From NCBI GenBank assembly GCA_022432975.1, contig CM039512.1, positions 4,945,498 through 5,009,497 on the forward strand: 64,000 bases of DNA, given 5' to 3'. The DNA comes from Begonia masoniana. Taxonomy: Eukaryota; Streptophyta; Magnoliopsida; Cucurbitales; Begoniaceae. Within the stretch, counting starts at the first letter, position 1; each line of letters opens with the position of its first letter. The notes below the pieces were generated by a model. That model was given only the letters and a program-made list of their open reading frames with translations. It ran no database searches and had not been told where the DNA came from. This document shows, piece after piece, positions 1 through 13,535 of this stretch. The translations under genes were made by a program, and so were the position numbers.

Positions 1-1789
1 GGACAAGTGCGACTAGTATGCCCCTGCTGCCGACATATACTGCACGTCATTTTCAAGTTCCACATAATTATTGTCGAACTCGATGGCTCGTCGACATCCC
101 ACACTCTTGTCTTCTTTGGCCTACCAGGTTGGCGATATCTTCTTGGCGGGATAAGTTGCTTCACATCTGTCACTACCGGCCACATTTTGCTGCTCACGGG
201 TTGTATAAACTGTGAGTACATCTGCAGGTAGGTCACCCGGTGGTAGCATGGATGCACATAATTTTTCGGTGCCATTCTCATGAACCGGATGCATTGAACG
301 GCATGGACACACGGAATTCCAGTACGCATCCACCTGGTGCAGTTGCACATACTCGTATTCATGTCAACTGTGTATTGTTCGTAGCCATTATTCACCTCAA
401 ATCGTGCATCTCCCGCTGGCTGAGCACTCCAATGTTGAGCTGCCATTTCTACCTTGGGACACAGGAGGTCTGTTGATTGTGCCAACTTCTCTAATTTTTT
501 GACGATGCGAGTCATCATATACTTTCGAATCAGCTCGAACATGGTCAAGATCGGCTTGTCCCTCGCAGGCAGTAGAAGTGCATTGAATGACTCGTTTAAA
601 TTATTCAGACCCATTTTGCACTTGGGGACCAAAGAGAATGCATGAGAAGCCCAATATTTAGGGTCTTCTGCTCGTAGCCATGTGTGGGCATCTGGGCTAA
701 GCTGAAATAATTTGCTCATTTCGTGGTTGAAATAATACTCTGTCGGTGCCCTGGCCGCACTTCACATCGCATCTCGGTATGCTCTGCCCAAAACAGAGAT
801 TTGAAGTTTGCGTACATATGCCGAAGGAAGAAGCACTGCTCGGAATCTTTAAATTCCTTTTCCACGGCATTCAACAACCCCTGAAATTTCCAAGAAAAAC
901 AAATTAATTAATTAATTAAATTAAATATAAGAATCACAATTAGAAATGTATTATACCTTTTGTCGATCAGAAATAAATGTCCATCCGCCTCCCTCGCCAA
1001 GGTTCAGGTCTCGCTTCAAGTGTTGCAAAAACCACGTCCATGTGTCATCGGACTCTCTTTCGACATTGACAACCGCAACGGGATATATTCCATCGTTGCC
1101 ATCAATACTTACGGCTATCAGTAATTGTCCGGGACACGACCCTTTCAGATGACAACCGTCCAAACAGACAATAGGTCTTCCAAACTGCAACAAACTTGTC
1201 TTGCACGCAGCCATGCACAGATACATTCTTTGATATGCCCACGTGTCAGAGTCCACCTCGTAAGCATGTATGTATAACGAACTACCCGGATTTGATCTAT
1301 AAATTTCAGCTGCGTACGACCAGACTTGCTTGTATTATTAGTCGCCGCTGCCTTCGTTGCGTGTTCGAGCTATAGTTCTTGCTCTTTTTGCAATATTAAA
1401 CGTAATGTTGACAGCAAAATCCTTCCTGTCTGTCTCGATGATGGAAGAGATTTCTCACGAGGTTGACTTTTAAACCTGTCAATATAATGATCTGCAATAT
1501 ATTTTGCTCGAGCGTTTGGATTTTCAACAACCCTCGCACAACTATGAGAATCGATAAAACTCTTTATTTGATAAGTTTCCTCGTCTTGCATCCTTGACCC
1601 CGCCGGTGTTCGAAGCTCCTCGTCAAGAGTTCTGGAGGTCGACCGCACCTCTATTTCTTCGTCTCCACCTATGTGATCGAATGCTCTAAGCTCGCCATAA
1701 GCAGGAGTGGCATAAGCATACCAATTGATATCAATATCAAAATATTCTATCTCGTCTGAATCAATCGCTCGAATTGAAATATCATCCAT
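1..1789 (-). pseudogene. Mutator-like (MULE) transposase, decayed and cut by the window edge
   Basis: The reading starts at an ATG at 1789. An acidic N-terminal segment is followed by a MuDR DNA-binding-like stretch (YQIKSFIDSHSCARV, about 1510-1580). The MULE transposase core lies at 951-1256, with a DGCHLKG motif preceding the PVAVVNVE segment. A further core piece at about 770-880 contains GLLNAVEKEF and CFFLRHMYANF, typical of MULE transposases. These last two pieces are joined by a likely intron at about 884-951 (AAAAG/GTATAA donor, TTTCAG acceptor on the - strand). Reading frame is lost around 1370-1460, so no continuous protein can be read. The C-terminal part should lie at 1-700 but I see only broken frames there. 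Such a protein would catalyse cut-and-paste transposition; this copy looks inactive. Terminal inverted repeats were not identified. Confidence 0.75.
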
Positions 1790-1889
1790 CGTCGTCGCTA
1801 GTAAATTCTCGAAAGTAAGATAATATTTGAGAAGAAAAGAATAAGAGGGGGAGGTGGCATGAGAAGAGGAGGGGCGAGGGACTTTAAAT

Positions 1890-2021
1890 AGGCCTGGAGA
1901 ACGGCAACCCGTTCTCATTGCACGAGTTGCCATTCTCAGCAGTTCAGCCCGTGATCCATGACATAATTGATCACAGGTCTGAGAATATGCTTGGAGAACG
2001 GCTACCCGTTCTCAGCAGTTC
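1890..2021. repeat. Direct repeats with palindromic GAGAACGG core
   Basis: Two direct copies of a motif reading GGAGAACGGCAACCCGTTCTC (1891) and GGAGAACGGCTACCCGTTCTC (1993) lie about 100 bp apart. Each is itself a near-palindrome (GAGAACGG ... CCGTTCTC). They sit 5' of the MULE reading frame, directly against the left end of the next LTR. Their role is unknown. Confidence 0.55.
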
Positions 2022-2422
2022 TGTGACGACCCCCGACCCGATCGGGCCGAGGAGCCATCACTCCGGAACATTTAACAGAAAATGGGACGTATATTTTTTT
2101 TTTATAAACAGAGCAGACTGAACTTTTAAGAGCAAACCCTTAAAAGCATAACAGAGAGAATGAAAACGACTAGAGGAGGGCATACTGTAGAAGAGCTACA
2201 GTGGATGGCATAAATAAACTGAGCGGAAGACGTAGGCAGTAGACGAAGCAGAAAATGTAAGTAAACTGGGCGGGTGATATAGACTAGCGGTAGATGTGAA
2301 TAAGACAAAAGTGAACAGTAAACAGCGACAGATGTGAATAAGACAAAAGTGAACAAAGACAGTGGCAGATGTGAATTAAATAGAAGCAACATAAGGGCAT
2401 ACTGTAGAAGGGCTACAGTGGA

Positions 2423-4970
2423 TGTCACGTCCCTAAAACTGTACCCAATTTCCCGTACATATTTTTTCATTTTATCCTAATAAACTATAAACTTAACATT
2501 TATGCGAAAACAATTTGAAAACAATTTAAAAATCAATTTAATAAAACGTTTAAAACAATTATTTAAACCAATACGTACCTGAACACCTATAAATTACAAC
2601 TATAACAAAGTACGTTTTCGAGAAAATAAACTGCGTGGATACGTTTAAAAGTTTAACATATCCTCCTGTTTCAAAATCACAAAACAGTTTATAAAACAGG
2701 CTTCCAAACAGGCATTTAAAACATCAAAAGTAACCTATCAACTACCAGATCCAAGCATCCTAAAATGTCTATACAATTCATCAATCCAAAATATCCCAAA
2801 CCCTCAAAACTATACGTACTATCCCCACGGGTCGGTGAAGCCTCGACTGCGCCAGCACACCACCGCAGCCATCCTCCGTCAACTGAATCATGCCTCAGGT
2901 GGAGGGATCTCATCCTCACCTGTATCCTTGATGTCTAGATCACCTACACCATACATATACACACTATGAGATGAAATCTCAGTAAGCTCTAGTAAATGCA
3001 ATGCATGCTGTGCTATGAGTTCATTAAACTATGCTTTATTTTCTTTACTATGCAATGCACTATAGGTGTCACCGAGATCCTATACCCTCTAACCGGAAAG
3101 CTCATCCAGCGGGCGGACTACTCTTTCCGGCTAGAGGAGGGGGGTACACGCTTACAACACGTACAGCCGTGCCTGAGCCCCACCTCGCGTGACCTGTAAA
3201 CTGTATGTCTTTCGGCCTGTATGCCTTTCGGCCTGTATGCCCAAAGGCCTATACGCCCGAAGGCCTGTATGCCCGAAGGCCTATATGCCCGAAGGCTCAT
3301 GCTATGCTTTACGTTATCTTTAAACCTCTGTGCGGAAATTCATTTTCATGTTTTTCTTTAAAACAAGTGATGCGTGAACAGTTCTATATCATAAAGTAAA
3401 CAAGCAATAATTCATACCATCGAGACTGTAAAGCATAAACTATAAACTCCTAAAACCTATCTACCCAAACCAAGCAATATAAAACACGTGCATCTCCAGA
3501 ATTTCCTCGAAACGACATTCGACGTACAGTGTAGGCCTGTCGGCCAAAGAAGATCACGAGAACTTACCTCGTGTCCGTTGCAGCTCTTGCTCCGTCCACG
3601 AGCGTTGTTCACCTACGCAATTTTCATCAATTTGTCGTTAATACGATATTAAACAATTAAATGTCCAAATTTAACAAAAACCTTAACTAAGGAATTTCTT
3701 AAAATCTTCACCTAACTAATCGAAGTATTTAACAACGATTAACGCTCGATAGCTTAAAATCACAATTAACGAGTTTTCCTAAAAACCCGAAAATTCACAA
3801 ATTAACATTTCTCGCAATTCACTCTAACTCCGTCCAATAACGTTCAATACGTCCTTTATATCGATAATTATTATAAACCTATCAATTTCGGACCCTATTT
3901 TGGGTTCGGTAAAAACCGACCCGAAACTTCGAACGCGCGTAACTTTCGCGTCGGTTATCGGAATCGAACGATTCCAGCGGCCACACGCTCCCCTAATAAC
4001 CTATTTTAACCTGCCAAAAGAAATTTTAAAACAATCGACCGTAGATAGGTCAATGTCCAAAAATCCGAATCTGCCCTTAATCGGAAATCCCCCCTTTTTG
4101 ATTTTTCACCAAATCACACTAATTTTCTCACCAATCAATCCCCCTTATACCTAATTAACAAAAACTACACCAAAATTTAGATATTATTCACAGAAAACCC
4201 GAAATCCCCAATCGGGATTCGCTGCATTTTGCTCAAATGAGCTCTCTGTTGCTCGGCAATCATTGCCGACTTGAAGCTCGGCAAGACGACGCCCGAGAAC
4301 AGCCAGAAAGGACCGGCGATCGGAGCTCAACAGAGCTCGCCGTTCCCGGCCAGAAATCGAGCAAGAACCGGGGAGAACTCACCGTTTCGATCGGGTTTTT
4401 TTGCGCGAAAGGCCGAACCGCACACTGGCTTCAACTCGCCGGAGTCTGCTCGTCTGAACGGTGGTCGGAGCCGCGTCGTCGCCGGTCGGAGGGATGCCGC
4501 TCGCCGTTCGTCGCTCTCGGGGTGCTCGGGAGCACGATGAAGAACATAATGAAATGTTCTTTTTTTTTTGTTTATTTATTAATAATAATAATAATAAAAA
4601 TAATAAAACTAAAACTATTTCTTAACAAAACATTAATTTTGCTCTCTCGTGTTTTCGACCATTCGAATTTTCTTATTTCGCCAATAAATCCGACTTATTA
4701 TCTGGGTTCTATTAAAACTGTCCGTTCGCAAATCGGATCTCGTTTACTATTTTTACTAAAACGTCCTTTATATTACGAGAAACGTAATTACTCGGAATAT
4801 AGCGTTATTATTCCGAAAATTCTCGTAAATTCTTTAAATTCTATTATTCGTTAAGATCATAATGACGTTTTTTTTTTCGTAAAACAGACCTGATTTGACA
4901 TATTTACAAAAATGCCATCCAATAATATAATAATAATATTCTCAAAAATCCGTACGAGCCGGATATTACA
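2423..4970 (-). mobile_element. Solo LTR (family C), 2548 bp, TSD GTGGA
   Basis: The + strand begins TGTCACGTCCC and ends GGATATTACA. The pentamer GTGGA flanks both sides (2418-2422 and 4971-4975), a perfect 5-bp target-site duplication. There is no internal coding region. Read on the - strand it starts TGTAATATCCGG, matching the start of the solo LTR at 29793-32757 (TGTAATACCCGG), and both carry the same 16-bp minisatellite. It is inserted inside the larger degenerate LTR at 2022-6997. Confidence 0.85.
3202..3297. repeat. 16-bp minisatellite, about 6 degenerate units
   Basis: Six successive 16-mers of the type TGTATGCCTTTCGGCC, TGTATGCCCAAAGGCC and TATATGCCCGAAGGCT lie inside the solo LTR. 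It is the short, diverged counterpart of the 66-copy array at 31072-32134. Confidence 0.85.
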
Positions 4971-7014
4971 GTGGATGACATGAATAAACTGGGCGGAAGA
5001 CGTGGACGGTTAGACGAAGCAGAAAAATGAAGTCAACAGGGCGGGCGATTAGGACTAGCGGAGGGTAGATATGAATAAGAAAAAGTGAACAGTAAACAGG
5101 GGCAGAGGGTGAATGAGACAAAAGTGAACAAAGACAGTGGCAGATGTGAAATAACTAGAAGCAAAAAACACGGGTAGAGTAAAACAGACTGACGTTCGGC
5201 GGAAGATGCGATTTTAAGGCCGCGATGGGTAGGCAGAAAGGCACTGTCAGGTGGATGTGAAACTATGGTCGAAAAGGCACTATTCACTGGTGGTGGGAAG
5301 TGACTACAGACAGACGAAGAACTGTACCGTGAAAGTGAACTACAGACAGAAATCAACTGGTCACCAGTGGAATTGACCTCAGGCAGAAGTGAACTTAAAG
5401 GCACGGTGGGATGAAATCGAAGTGTGAGATATGACGTTATGGCGGTAGATTTCATAACCAGTGTGGATGTGAATCCTAAGGCAGTAGATGTTAATAAACC
5501 GAAGCGTGGATGTGCCTCCTCTGGCGGAGGAGACGTAATAACCCGAAGCCGTAGAAATGATTTTAAAAGCAGCGTGGAGTGATCGTAATATGTAAGTTTT
5601 AAAGAACAAATTTGACAACTTTTAACTAGGACGGACATACTAACAGGAAGCATAAAACAGATAGCATAGAATTTCAAATTCTAAAACAACGATTCAGAAT
5701 TATTTTCGAGCAATAACGAAAACCTTGACATGAGTTTAATATATCAACTGCATGGATAACTCGAAAACCAACGCCATCCATCAGAACCATAGAGGAGAAC
5801 TCCAGGCATTCCAGCATATTTCAAAATATATAATACAACTTTCCAAATACCGAGGTTTTAAATACTTGGCACAAACCTATACATATGCAAATTTCCACAA
5901 GTTTTAAAAACAAAAACACAACTCACCACAGCGTTTTCAGACATAAACTTTACTAGAACACTTCCCTCCCTCTTGTTTCAGAAACATGTCCTGGCTCCAC
6001 AACCACACCCCGAAGCTCTAGCCACCATCCACCTATTCGTCGTACTGAGGCACAAGCCCTCATCTACGGGATTCGTACCTACATCAGAGAGTTTCACTAT
6101 GACCTAAAGCTCAGCAAGAACATGTTAGAAAATGCAGTGATGCATATGCTATTCCTGAATTTCGAAATCCATGAACATTACATTACCTACTTCCCTTACT
6201 TTTGTGCACTGGAACATGGAGGTATAAGTGGGGCTTATAGAGAACTGGCACAATATATACACACCTGTACTTACAGGGATACAGGATGTCCAGTCCCCGT
6301 CCCACACTTAACTCGTACATTACATTAGCAATTTTTGATCTTTCTAACTTCAAACGTGGCAAAATATTTTGCAATGACTTCTAGAGAAAACGTTATCCAT
6401 AAAATACCGGTACTTAACTTACATTATATTCGACAAGATAACACAGCAAGACGAAAAAACAAAAACAACAGATAACTCACACCTAACTGTGGCCCCACTT
6501 ATCTACCCACCACCAAGCCCGACGAAATGAAAATCGAGTACCGCCGTGATGTAGAGTCTTAAAGGGCCAACTACGCATGACTTACCCTGTTGTTGTAGCG
6601 TTAACGCTTCGCACCATAGTGTCCTTGGCGCTCCACAGATCTTGGCAGATAACTGAGAGATCGGAGGAGCTTCGCTGGTCGTTGTCGTCGGAGAAGTAGA
6701 ATTCCGCGAGAGAATGAAGATAACATAGAAGATAAGGCCAAGAGGGTTTACTAGGAGAAAATATATCTTGTTCAACAGTTGCACACATGACAGTCCTTCT
6801 TGATTCCTCCCACCTACAGAATTCCATCCTAAACAACCCCTCCTGGGTTTTTCTAACTAATGTGCCTTTGTTACACTTTGCATTTAGTTTTGCACACTAA
6901 ACATCCCAACAAATTTCACCAAAACATACATTATATTAATAGTCTACTCTCATTGTATAATTTCAGAGATAATTTCTCTGCCAAAGCGGGTGTCACAATT
7001 TCCAGCCGATCCAT

Positions 7015-7114
7015 NNNNNNNNNNNNNNNNNNNNNNNNNNNNNNNNNNNNNNNNNNNNNNNNNNNNNNNNNNNNNNNNNNNNNNNNNNNNNNNNNNNNNN
7101 NNNNNNNNNNNNNN
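7015..7114. other. Assembly gap (100 N)
   Basis: A run of exactly 100 N, a conventional placeholder for a scaffold join of unknown length. It lies between the end of the degenerate LTR and an A-run that leads to the Gag-UBP14 ORF. True distance and content here are unknown. Confidence 0.99.
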
Positions 7115-7897
7115 AAAAAAAAAAAAACCGAACTCTGACTGCCGATCGTCGTTCAGACCGTCGTTGTTTGTCGGTCCTGCGTGTCGTTGCTCGTTGCTGT
7201 CCAGAGTGTCGATTGTCGACAATTTGTTCTTCTGCTGCTTCGCTTTTTGGTCTTTGGAGTTGCTGCCTGGAGCTCTCCGCCGTATTCCACTGCTCTGTTT
7301 CCTGGTTTTCTGCTCTGTTTGTTGGATACCTCCGCGGTTCTGTCCGCAAGTTGCTGAACAATATCACCTGCTCGTTTTCCCTCCTTTTTCGAATCGATGA
7401 TGGTATTCCTTTGGAACTGTGAGCGCTCATCTGCACTCCTATCACCAGCGGATTTCACCATCGAATCAGGAGTTTTCTTTCTAATCTTCTATTAGTTTTG
7501 CGCCTGCGCAGCTCACGGAGTTTCTCTGTGTTTGCTCCCTCGGATTTCTGACCTCTCGTATTGTTTCGGTCGGGAAGCTCGCTGGATTTGCCGCTGTTCT
7601 GTCCTTGAGCTTCTAGACACTGAGGGTTGAACGTGGGTTTCACTATTAACGTAGTGAATTGTGAAGGGTTATGTGGGCCAATCTACTAGGCCATATTGTG
7701 AAGTGTTCTGTGGGCCTTTCTGCTCACTTTCTTGGGCCAGTCTGCTCCCTCTGGGTTTCACTAATAATGGAGAATTGAACTCTACTTCTGCAGCCTCTTT
7801 GGTCGTGATTAACACAACGGTACAAAGAGTTTTTTTTTGTTCAATCTTTCTCGGTGAATTATTTGTTGTGATTTGTGTAATTTATTTGGCCGATATA

Positions 7898-9580
7898 ATG
7901 TCACGGAGTAGTGTTCACAGTCACAAATGGCGAGAGACTAATTTGCAAAGAACTTCAATGGACTACTTTGATCATGTAAGACCATATAATATTTCACTAC
8001 CTATTTTTAGTGGTCATTTCAATGGTTATGAAATTTTTGATTGGATAGAAAAGATGGATATATTGTTTGAATGTCATGATTATTCAGAGAGAAGAAAAAT
8101 CCTGCTAGCCTCTTGGAGTTTCAAAGGGTATGCTAATTTCTGGTGGGAAAAATTTACGAGAAAGAGAAGAGTAGATGACAAGGGCGAAATTCTTACATGG
8201 GAGTTAATGAAGTACCAAATGAAAAAGGAGTTTGCTCCAAGACATTACGAACAGAAGTATGGCTCTCGGCAATTTTCGGGGTCACAAAACACATTGGAGC
8301 CACCACCCTTTCTAGCCCACGCACGTAATGAATTTGTTGAGAAGTTCTTCGATGAAGGAAAAGTTAAACTTGAAAAGATTCAACAAGGTCTTGACAGGCT
8401 TACCGAGACTTTGAAGGAGTTCAATCAAGCTAAGGTTGAGAAAGAGAAAACTCATGTTGATTCTTGTGAACCAATACTTGACAGTTGGGTAGAGTTATCG
8501 GAAAAGGTTTTTGTGGAGCCTACTCCAACAAATACCTCTCTTGATTCCTTAGGTGACTTGAATTGTTTAGATGAATACGCTTATATGGAGGGACCAGCCC
8601 TTGCAAAGGATGAGAAAGAGACTTTATATGAAAAGAAAGATGTTTTACTAGAGGAAGAGATCATCTATCCTCACGAGAGTCCTCTACTCGAAATTGATGG
8701 ACAAAAGGATGAAGAAGAAAAGATGACCATCGCTGTAAGAGAGCTTGATCAAAATTCCAATTTTGACTGGAATCAAATTCAAGAAAGTGGACAGGAGGTG
8801 GAACCAATACCTGGACCAGGTTACAGTGGTCTTGTTAACCTTGGAAATAACTTCAAGTTTGGTATTGAGGATCGTATGACGTGTACTTCTGGAAAAGTTG
8901 TTTATAATAGAAGGCTTGACTACATTCTTTCTTTCAATATTCCCTTACATGAAGCTACTAACAAAGAAGAACTTGCAGCCTTTCAAAAGTTAAAACAAAA
9001 AAACATTTCAGAAGGAAAGAAATTGGAAAACAATGAGATTGAATCAGATAAGCTGTCAATGGGATGCAACCATCTTCACTGTCAGAAAGCTGCCATTAAC
9101 ACTTCAAATGTTGGAGTGCAAGAGGCAATGAATTGGCTACTTTCCCATTTGGACGATTCAGATATAGATGCCCGCATCACTCAAGAAGCATATGGTGTTG
9201 TTGACCAATCTAACCTGGGTGTGTTGCTTCATTTTGGTTTCCAAGAAGACGTTGGGCTAGAAGAAGTCTTTAAGAAAGGACACTTTCATGGTGAAATCGT
9301 CTCTTTGAAGGCAAGTATGGGAAAAGAAATAGTTTTACCTTCCCAAGTTCATCTTTTCCACTCAACAGATGAAAGATTGCTGTCATCTGCTAGTAATGCT
9401 CTTGTAGGTATGCTCAAACTTCATAACCAGAAAGTTGAAGTCATATATGCTGCTGCTCTACTTCTGAACAGGGCATTTGCTAAGCCTGCATTTGAAGGAG
9501 TAAGTGAACTAGCTGTCGAATTTGTGGACGTCGACAGAAGGTTGTTCAACCGCTTAACTTTTGGTTGGGAGGTTGATTAG
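7898..9580 (+). CDS. Chimeric ORF: retrotransposon Gag-like domain fused to fragments of deubiquitinase UBP14
   Basis: An intact 560-aa intronless ORF. I chose the ATG at 7898 because the Gag-like domain starts soon after; an in-frame ATG exists upstream at 7661. Residues about 20-115 resemble plant retrotransposon Gag (PIFSGHFNGYEIFDWIEKMD, then ANFWWEKF, then a KYQMKKEFAPRHYE segment). Residues about 130-285 are acidic and charged. From about residue 285 the protein follows plant ubiquitin-specific protease 14: FDWNQIQESGQE, GPGYSGLVNLGN (309-317, the Cys-box lead-in), FKFGIED at 319, IPLHEATNKEE, then LHCQKAAINTSNVGVQEAMN (393-412) and a second UBA-like piece ending FGFQEDVG at 453. The catalytic Cys after NLGN is missing: sequence jumps to FKFGIED. 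The His box is absent. The last 100 residues are unrecognised. No protease, RT or integrase follows. It is probably a captured, catalytically dead UBP14 cDNA in a non-autonomous element, lying upstream of and co-linear with CCC1. Confidence 0.8.
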   Translation: MSRSSVHSHKWRETNLQRTSMDYFDHVRPYNISLPIFSGHFNGYEIFDWIEKMDILFECHDYSERRKILLASWSFKGYANFWWEKFTRKRRVDDKGEILTWELMKYQMKKEFAPRHYEQKYGSRQFSGSQNTLEPPPFLAHARNEFVEKFFDEGKVKLEKIQQGLDRLTETLKEFNQAKVEKEKTHVDSCEPILDSWVELSEKVFVEPTPTNTSLDSLGDLNCLDEYAYMEGPALAKDEKETLYEKKDVLLEEEIIYPHESPLLEIDGQKDEEEKMTIAVRELDQNSNFDWNQIQESGQEVEPIPGPGYSGLVNLGNNFKFGIEDRMTCTSGKVVYNRRLDYILSFNIPLHEATNKEELAAFQKLKQKNISEGKKLENNEIESDKLSMGCNHLHCQKAAINTSNVGVQEAMNWLLSHLDDSDIDARITQEAYGVVDQSNLGVLLHFGFQEDVGLEEVFKKGHFHGEIVSLKASMGKEIVLPSQVHLFHSTDERLLSSASNALVGMLKLHNQKVEVIYAAALLLNRAFAKPAFEGVSELAVEFVDVDRRLFNRLTFGWEVD

Positions 9581-10272
9581 TTGTTGTGCTATGGGTCTTT
9601 CAACTTGAATGAGAGTTTCTCGTTCCCCGGGAGAATTGATGAGGACATCAAAATTAGATTTTTATTTATGTTTTACATTAAAAGTATTAAGCTTTTCAAT
9701 TTTCTAGGTTAGCATTATTATGCTAATTTATTATTATAGTTTTTAGTATTTTTATGGTTTTCTGTTATTTGTTTAATGGGTCATTAGTGTCTTTGTCATT
9801 TTCCAAGTAGGTTTTATTCTATTTAAGTGTTGCATTGTAACTTTGAAGGTTAGTTGATGAATGAATGATAAAATGAGTTTTGAGTTATCTCTGGAATCTC
9901 CTTCTTCCAATCTCCCTTTCTGTTACTCTTCCCCTCTCCTTTTCTGAACTTCTTTCTTCCTAAGGCTTCCTCTTTCCCTCACACTCTTTCTCTCCCTGTT
10001 TAATTCTATTTTCTTATCCGCTGCTGCATCAAATGGTAATGCAGACTGATAACCTACACTGAAAAAGCTATGCAGTCGAAATTATTTCTAAAAAAATTCT
10101 GGCCCTTACTCATGGACATTTAATTTTGAATTTGGAGGAATAATGATGAGACAATAATTTGAGCAATTGAACTTCTAGTTTGATACCCTCAAAAGCATAA
10201 GTAGTTGTGGAGGTCAATATAATATTTTATTTCATGCCATTACTAAGAAGTGAAAATTATTTCTTAGCACAG
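9581..10272 (+). other. 3' flank of the chimeric ORF and intron upstream of the CCC1 exons
   Basis: AT-rich, then a pyrimidine-rich stretch at about 9895-10020. No ORF of note. It ends in a splice acceptor (TTTCTTAGCACAG) immediately before the first visible CCC1 exon. Confidence 0.6.

Positions 10273-13535
<3,263 letters not shown>

Follow-up and report, generated by a model that had tools for sequence, protein, structure and literature searches.

We analyzed a window of 64,000 bp of the Begonia masoniana genome (assembly GCA_022432975.1, contig CM039512.1, positions 4,945,498 to 5,009,497 of the forward strand) that contains an open reading frame (ORF) joining a Gag-like module to pieces of the deubiquitinase UBP14. 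The ORF extends through 560 uninterrupted codons from the ATG at 7898 to the stop codon at 9578-9580, as the first-pass annotation of this DNA had described, and the same frame stays open in the 5' direction as far as a GTG at 7661 (639 codons). The annotation regarded it as a single chimeric gene, a view that did not hold up. The ORF belongs, as one copy, to a family of long terminal repeat (LTR) elements with swappable host cargo, and the element in the window is likely one insertion from a non-autonomous retrotransposon family of this LTR type, which captured host mRNA and was amplified.

A Gag-UBP14 reading frame in the window

The similarity to UBP14 is far above chance. The annotation had placed it in residues 285-455; we found residues 244-427 to be collinear with UBP14/USP5 in ordered pieces. 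The best structure-chain matches in the PDB were USP5 (E = 8.9e-23) and the UBA region of Arabidopsis UBP14 (E = 2e-18). A total of 430 proteins matched the ORF at an E value of ≤0.01; all 120 of those listed carry the UCH domain (PF00443), and none of these 120 is a Gag fusion to UBP14. An alignment with 25 plant UBP14 proteins was used to place the joins and the catalytic boxes. The UBP14 part ends after GLVNLGN, before the catalytic Cys, restarts at FKFGIED, and jumps a second time before UBA1. The two large joins lie after residue 317 and at residues 381-386, and a further 33-bp deletion distinguishes the window ORF from older copies. The two or more internal deletions and the loss of the catalytic Cys that had been proposed were therefore both recovered, and the ORF has no His box either.

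The assignment of the middle of the ORF to UBP14 stands, but that of its C terminus does not, as the last ~100 residues consist of a second host gene and a tail shared by the family. The two UBA regions that had been reported are likewise incomplete. UBA1 matches the Pfam profile only from position 9, compared with the whole domain in the older copy L016, and little more than the first helix of UBA2 is left, so that the window copy has no complete three-helix UBA. The ORF thus resembles UBP14/USP5 in the sequence of its lead-in, middle block, and UBA pieces but differs in lacking the Cys and His boxes and most of either UBA. Judged from these missing residues, the captured piece cannot be a protease. 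AlphaFold2 gave a mean predicted local distance difference test score (pLDDT) of 36.6 for the whole ORF, too poor for a fold search, with moderate values (57 to 79) only at residues 391-440, the later UBA1 helices. Given the 33-bp loss from UBA1, the cut UBA2, the modest AlphaFold2 confidence, and dN/dS values (nonsynonymous to synonymous substitution rates) near or above 1 in the recent copies, the suggestion of a ubiquitin-binding adaptor or dominant-negative protein is weak. We doubt that the window copy binds ubiquitin; an adaptor role is unlikely, and ubiquitin function is most likely absent.

The first part of the ORF was reported as Gag-like, and this was also our finding, although the Retrotrans_gag profile matched residues 70-119 (E = 3.9e-4) at 21.0 bits, below the cut-off of 24.1. 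The corresponding matches in the ORFs of loci L025, L028, and L037 were below the cut-off as well. Together with the LTR context, this match points to a Gag module, less firmly than the sequence points to UBP14. Support in a gag tree was mostly weak, and no claim is based on it. The parts of the element are listed in Table 1.

Table 1. Positions of the element's parts in the window
Feature	Positions	Strand	Remarks
Fusion ORF	7898..9580	+	gag, mid, UBP14 pieces, ARM pieces, and family tail in series
Gag-like module, aa 1-190	7898..8467	+	common to 30 fetched myosin-type loci
Recombination interval within gag	8238..8342 (ORF nt 341-445)	+	switch of informative sites
Mid module, aa 191-264	8468..8689	+	present also in UBP14-free locus L017
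UBP14 lead-in to Cys box	8690..8848	+	ends after GLVNLGN; first residues uncertain
Second UBP14 piece (FKFGIED...IPLHEATNKEE...NNEIESDK)	8849..9052	+	UBP14/USP5 similarity, plant UBP14 alignment
UBA1 remnant, aa 386-425	9053..9172	+	UBA_7 E = 5.6e-12, profile 9-48 of 48; helix-1 stretch gone, 33-bp deletion
UBA2 remnant, ~first helix only	9200..9253	+	plant UBP14 alignment
Stretch between UBP14 and ARM parts	9263..9349	+	UBP14 proteins not matched; host ARM exons begin at query residue 49
Two ends of captured ARM/HEAT-like host gene	9350..9520	+	~490 bp missing between, at short repeat near 9444-9457
57-bp tail FVDVDRRLFNRLTFGWEVD	9521..9577	+	common to myosin-type elements
Conserved stretch, polypurine-tract position	9616..9635	+	5' of the 3' LTR
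3' LTR TGATGAGG...GCTGCATCA	9636..10031	+	homologous to paired LTRs of L009-L014, L022, L024, L026
5' leader, mosaic	7115..7897	+	patchy likeness to L011, L012, L018, L021, L026, L027, others
100-N run 5' of ORF	7015..7114	.	counted Ns

The element family and its host cargo

The genome-wide copy search that had been suggested was run on the B. masoniana assembly (795 Mb, 308 contigs) and showed the window sequence to be multicopy. ORF DNA was found in at least four places at 98 to 100% identity and in at least five at 86 to 92%, with numerous shorter matches covering gag and the 57-bp tail. The search scored 40 of 302 candidates, and the copy counts are lower bounds. A lone host fusion gene was dropped as an explanation once these matches appeared.

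Forty loci, designated by L numbers, were fetched for comparison. Family LTRs are bounded by TGATGAGG...TGCATCA, with TG...CA ends, and many of the first 20 loci have paired LTRs of about 345 to 430 bp. The members of a pair are identical in L025 (345 bp) and nearly so in L011 (99.8%, 1 difference in 408 bp), L009 (99.5%, 2 in 429), and L010 (99.3%, 3 in 428). With the substitution rate given in PMC5664825 (1.3e-8 per site per year), the insertions in L009, L010, and L011 would be roughly 0.09 to 0.3 million years old; a woody-plant rate would push these ages older. A target site duplication flanks the TG...CA ends in 9 of the 13 loci tested, 7 bp long in L009 and 5 bp long in the other eight. 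A primer binding site of the AATTTGGTATCAGAGC type, which we presumptively assign to its tRNA, lies directly 3' of the 5' LTR, and a conserved CCCCGGGAGAAT stretch precedes the 3' LTR in the manner of a purine tract. A 32-base pattern spanning the 3' junction had 128 matches in the genome, 64 on each strand; the reversed control had none. No reverse transcriptase, RNase H, or integrase core was among the Pfam matches of the family ORFs tested, which by the same measure lack the protease, reverse transcriptase, RNase H, and integrase set of an autonomous Ty3/Gypsy chromovirus. The family probably originated from Ty3/Gypsy. No LTR pair was found in the window, a result that the 100-N gap upstream would explain, as the 5' LTR was probably lost there.

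An assembly or annotation artifact might be suspected from this gap just 5' of the element, but it is scarcely credible, since other chromosomal locations have the same junctions, each with target duplications of its own. A domesticated host gene, that is, a fixed Gag-UBP14 protein acting as a ubiquitin adaptor or dominant negative, would fit the residual UBA similarity and the 560-codon frame, which is open in both the window and L010. Nevertheless, this explanation is very unlikely, as several near-identical copies lie between LTRs, the UBAs are damaged, the recent copies are unconstrained, and no such fusion is among the 120 listed matching proteins.

The slot that holds UBP14 in the window holds different host genes in other copies, with up to three per frame, and the cargo identified is always in the same orientation as gag. 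UBP14 modules were present in 9 of the 40 fetched loci in addition to the window, and 30 carried myosin IQ repeats followed by a chromodomain-like module and the same tail. L017 has gag and mid only, with neither UBP14 nor the myosin and chromodomain modules. Gag-only sister elements were considered and rejected, as myosin IQ repeats and a chromodomain follow in the same ORFs. IQ repeats were detected by Pfam in L025 (E = 1.7e-13) and L028 (E = 3.2e-17), and the Chromo profile passed its cut-off in L028 (E = 4.6e-6) only (L025, E = 0.0012). The chromodomain-like module and tail resemble the C terminus of a chromovirus integrase. The proteins matched by the myosin cargo, eight in all, are of the myosin-type IQ kind, and none of the eight is a Gag fusion. 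We take the captured myosin to be of class XI. In L037 and L038, a SEC31-like part, with a weak PDB match (E = 0.0042), comes after myosin and is in turn followed by TAF2 (PF25577, E = 2.8e-18).

Nine more 3' junctions (L049 to L057) were sampled. Four of them (L051, L054, L055, and L056) carry myosin, L052 carries PDS5, L053 carries an AAA-bromodomain piece, and L049 and L050 carry a sucrase/ferredoxin-like piece (PF06999; in L049, E = 3.3e-6, below the cut-off). In the 500 bp 5' of the L057 junction, no module was recognized; this may be further cargo. The open frame 5' of L052 contains sucrase/ferredoxin-like (E = 1e-9) and PDS5 (E = 2.5e-36) parts, and that 5' of L053 has PDS5 (E = 5.1e-21) fused to the AAA-bromodomain part. 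A joined L059 and L053 protein query matched 162 proteins at an E value of ≤0.001, including AAA-bromodomain proteins at 2e-141, with a maximum coverage of 64% among the 120 listed; none of these 120 is a PDS5-AAA-bromodomain fusion, the two protein types occurring apart. A second, adjacent element copy in L021 (93-1000) has cargo 99.4% like that of L053, indicating that the AAA-bromodomain type is also multicopy. The family cargo thus comprises at least eight host genes, of which SEC31 is the least certain.

The LTRs, primer site, leader, and Gag-type module are native to the family, as are, in most copies, the chromodomain-like module and tail. Pieces of spliced host mRNAs occupy the place of the protease, reverse transcriptase, and integrase core.

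Host-gene capture, reading frames, and recombination

The second gene captured in the window ORF, of the ARM/HEAT-like type, has a host relative on contig C1 with separated exons. The 681 bases fetched from this host locus contain exon stretches of 55 and 62 bases that match at 93% identity. The intron between these two stretches of the parent, ~563 bp with GT...AG ends, is exactly absent from L012, L013, and L029, indicating that capture was from mRNA. The capture of a processed transcript proposed in the first-pass annotation is therefore borne out for the ARM gene; for the UBP14 part, mRNA capture is suggested by analogy. Capture at the DNA level, by nested insertion or by Helitron-like or MULE-like transduplication, could be imagined from the MULE-like sequences elsewhere in the window, which we presume to be such from their motifs. 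However, the exact loss of the ARM intron in three copies and the sense orientation of all identified cargo relative to gag make this highly improbable. A Rosa UBP14 query gave no host exon, although a similar query gave the ARM host exons; the discrepancy may stem from the limits of the search or be genuinely unusual. In L029 (1413-3272), more than 20 tandem repeats of a 78-bp unit derived from the UBP14/ARM junction give a 620-codon open frame.

To compile a set of junctions, module matches with E values of ≥1e-4 were dropped (tails excepted), and the second L021 element and the distant gag matches of L017 and L025 were removed. Neighboring modules were in the same frame in 123 of 133 pairs, of which 79 were fully open. 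Eight types of capture junction were each mostly in frame, for which the chance is about 1 in 6,500, a figure to be read with the relatedness of the copies and the help of long frames in discovery. In 12 intact Gag-myosin-chromodomain ORFs, pooled dN/dS was 0.66 (0.45 to 0.90) for gag, 0.50 (0.33 to 0.74) for myosin, and 0.25 (0.18 to 0.36) for the chromodomain and tail, with 90% bootstrap ranges all below 1. One PDS5 pair gave 0.24, a value that may in part be that of the host gene if two separate captures took place. Older UBP14 pairs gave 0.47 to 0.98.

A use of the cargo by the element is favored by the myosin and chromodomain data and disfavored by the UBP14 data. The cargo may instead be a passive passenger of the same element, with no protein role, its long frames resulting from the decay of early-stop RNAs, chance, and discovery bias. 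This is a real contender, if somewhat short of probable. It would account for dN/dS near or above 1 in the recent UBP14 copies, for stops in the many copies whose junctions are not fully open, and for UBP14 and ARM parts that vary by deletions from copy to copy. RNA decay alone, however, does not predict the dN/dS values clearly below 1 for myosin and the chromodomain in the 12 intact ORFs. That the captured pieces are working, exchangeable cassettes of a Gag-cargo-chromodomain polyprotein, drawn from co-packaged mRNA, retained only in frame, selected, and swapped between element families, is a tentative proposal that we consider rather doubtful.

Cassettes do recombine, as shown by the myosin-type 5' gag on recent UBP14 copies. 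Over ORF nucleotides 67-341, the window agrees with the myosin-type loci L021, L022, and L025 at 30 of 30 informative sites, and over nucleotides 445-570, it agrees with the older UBP14-type loci L012 and L013 at 41 of 42. L009, L010, and L011 share this mosaic. Because all five older UBP14 copies have a different 5' gag, the transfer appears to have been of a myosin-type 5' gag into the recent UBP14 copies and not in the opposite direction.

We consider serial capture by template switching, with amplification in trans, to be the likely course of events. Element RNA would be reverse transcribed inside a particle that relies on enzymes supplied by a partner. The reverse transcriptase would switch from this RNA to a host mRNA packaged alongside it and then return, placing sense, intron-free pieces between gag and the 3' end, and co-packaged element RNAs would then swap cassettes. 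Variants with one frame from Gag through the tail would spread best. The UBP14/ARM version would have joined a myosin-type 5' gag, and this recombinant would have begotten the recent copies, including that of the window. Template switching between co-packaged RNAs, described for reverse transcription in section 4 of the review PMC13317346, would explain why the cargo reads in sense, lacks introns, and can be stacked, and how cassettes are exchanged. A possible partner is an element in L017 (3251-6205), which has an LTR with the same first bases, the same primer site, and an ORF with Gag (E = 7e-16) and an aspartic protease match (E = 0.0019) below the cut-off.

Several observations weigh against this account. 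We saw no partner reverse transcriptase, including in the L017 element. Target site duplications were not found in 4 of the 13 loci tested, and the 5' LTR and target duplication of the window copy are not visible. The Gag assignment in the window is weak, with a match under the Pfam cut-off and an AlphaFold2 gag model (pLDDT of 46) that is useless. No host UBP14 exon was recovered, as all 28 matches were at element copies, and intron loss is therefore shown only at one ARM intron. The copies behind the junction counts are related to one another, and long frames contributed to the discovery of the modules. The window and its three closest relatives appear unconstrained, with whole-ORF dN/dS of 1.12 to 2.56 from only 11 to 27 changes; the window and L009 differ by 0 or 1 synonymous versus 10 changes and the window and L011 by 5 versus 22. 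Finally, two of the four recent UBP14 frames are broken, and only those of the window and L010 are open from start to tail.

Surroundings, related elements, and significance

An exon-like stretch at 12414-13532, 3' of the element and on the same strand, matches the C-terminal domain of SLC12 cation-chloride cotransporters (E = 1.1e-40), and another at 10276-10672, with the same location and strand, is presumably part of such a cotransporter. A motif search of positions 1-7014 found no upstream cotransporter exons, and the element may therefore lie within a long intron or next to a cotransporter gene that has been truncated. ORFs at 3-2011 on the minus strand resemble what we take to be a MULE-type transposase, and a TA repeat of about 500 bp lies at ~10974-11481.

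Since Bs1, LTR elements have been known to capture host exons, but most examples are isolated and decaying. Maize Bs1 is an LTR element bearing segments of three host genes in a chimeric ORF (PMC13317346, section 4; PMC7264820). The Begonia family similarly has host-gene segments and a chimeric ORF inside an LTR element but differs in that eight or more host genes are combined in several ways, a chromodomain-like module recurs, and cassettes of different cargo types recombine. TR-GAG elements have a single Gag-type ORF and no pol, and one of Arabidopsis transposed in ddm1 (PMC8704663). The Begonia elements share a single, putatively Gag-type ORF without recognized pol, but theirs is lengthened in frame by host pieces and mostly also by a chromodomain-like module. 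LTR elements of rice, sorghum, and pepper also contain spliced host transcripts, some duplicated with the element (PMC3726574 and PMC5664825). In contrast to the Begonia family, the parts of these reports consulted describe whole or partial genes and no serial in-frame Gag-cargo-chromodomain fusions of several genes per family. The open-access literature searched yielded no report of a Gag-UBP14 or Gag-myosin element. The kind of element is thus already known from Bs1 and TR-GAG, and the range of cargo is new to us.

ORFs of this sort could be recorded in plant genome annotations as host UBP14, myosin, PDS5, or TAF2 genes. As the family is young, with many cargo combinations, kept frames, and identifiable parents, the order of captures should be readable. 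The family could reveal the rules of template-switching junctions and whether the element uses captured host domains.
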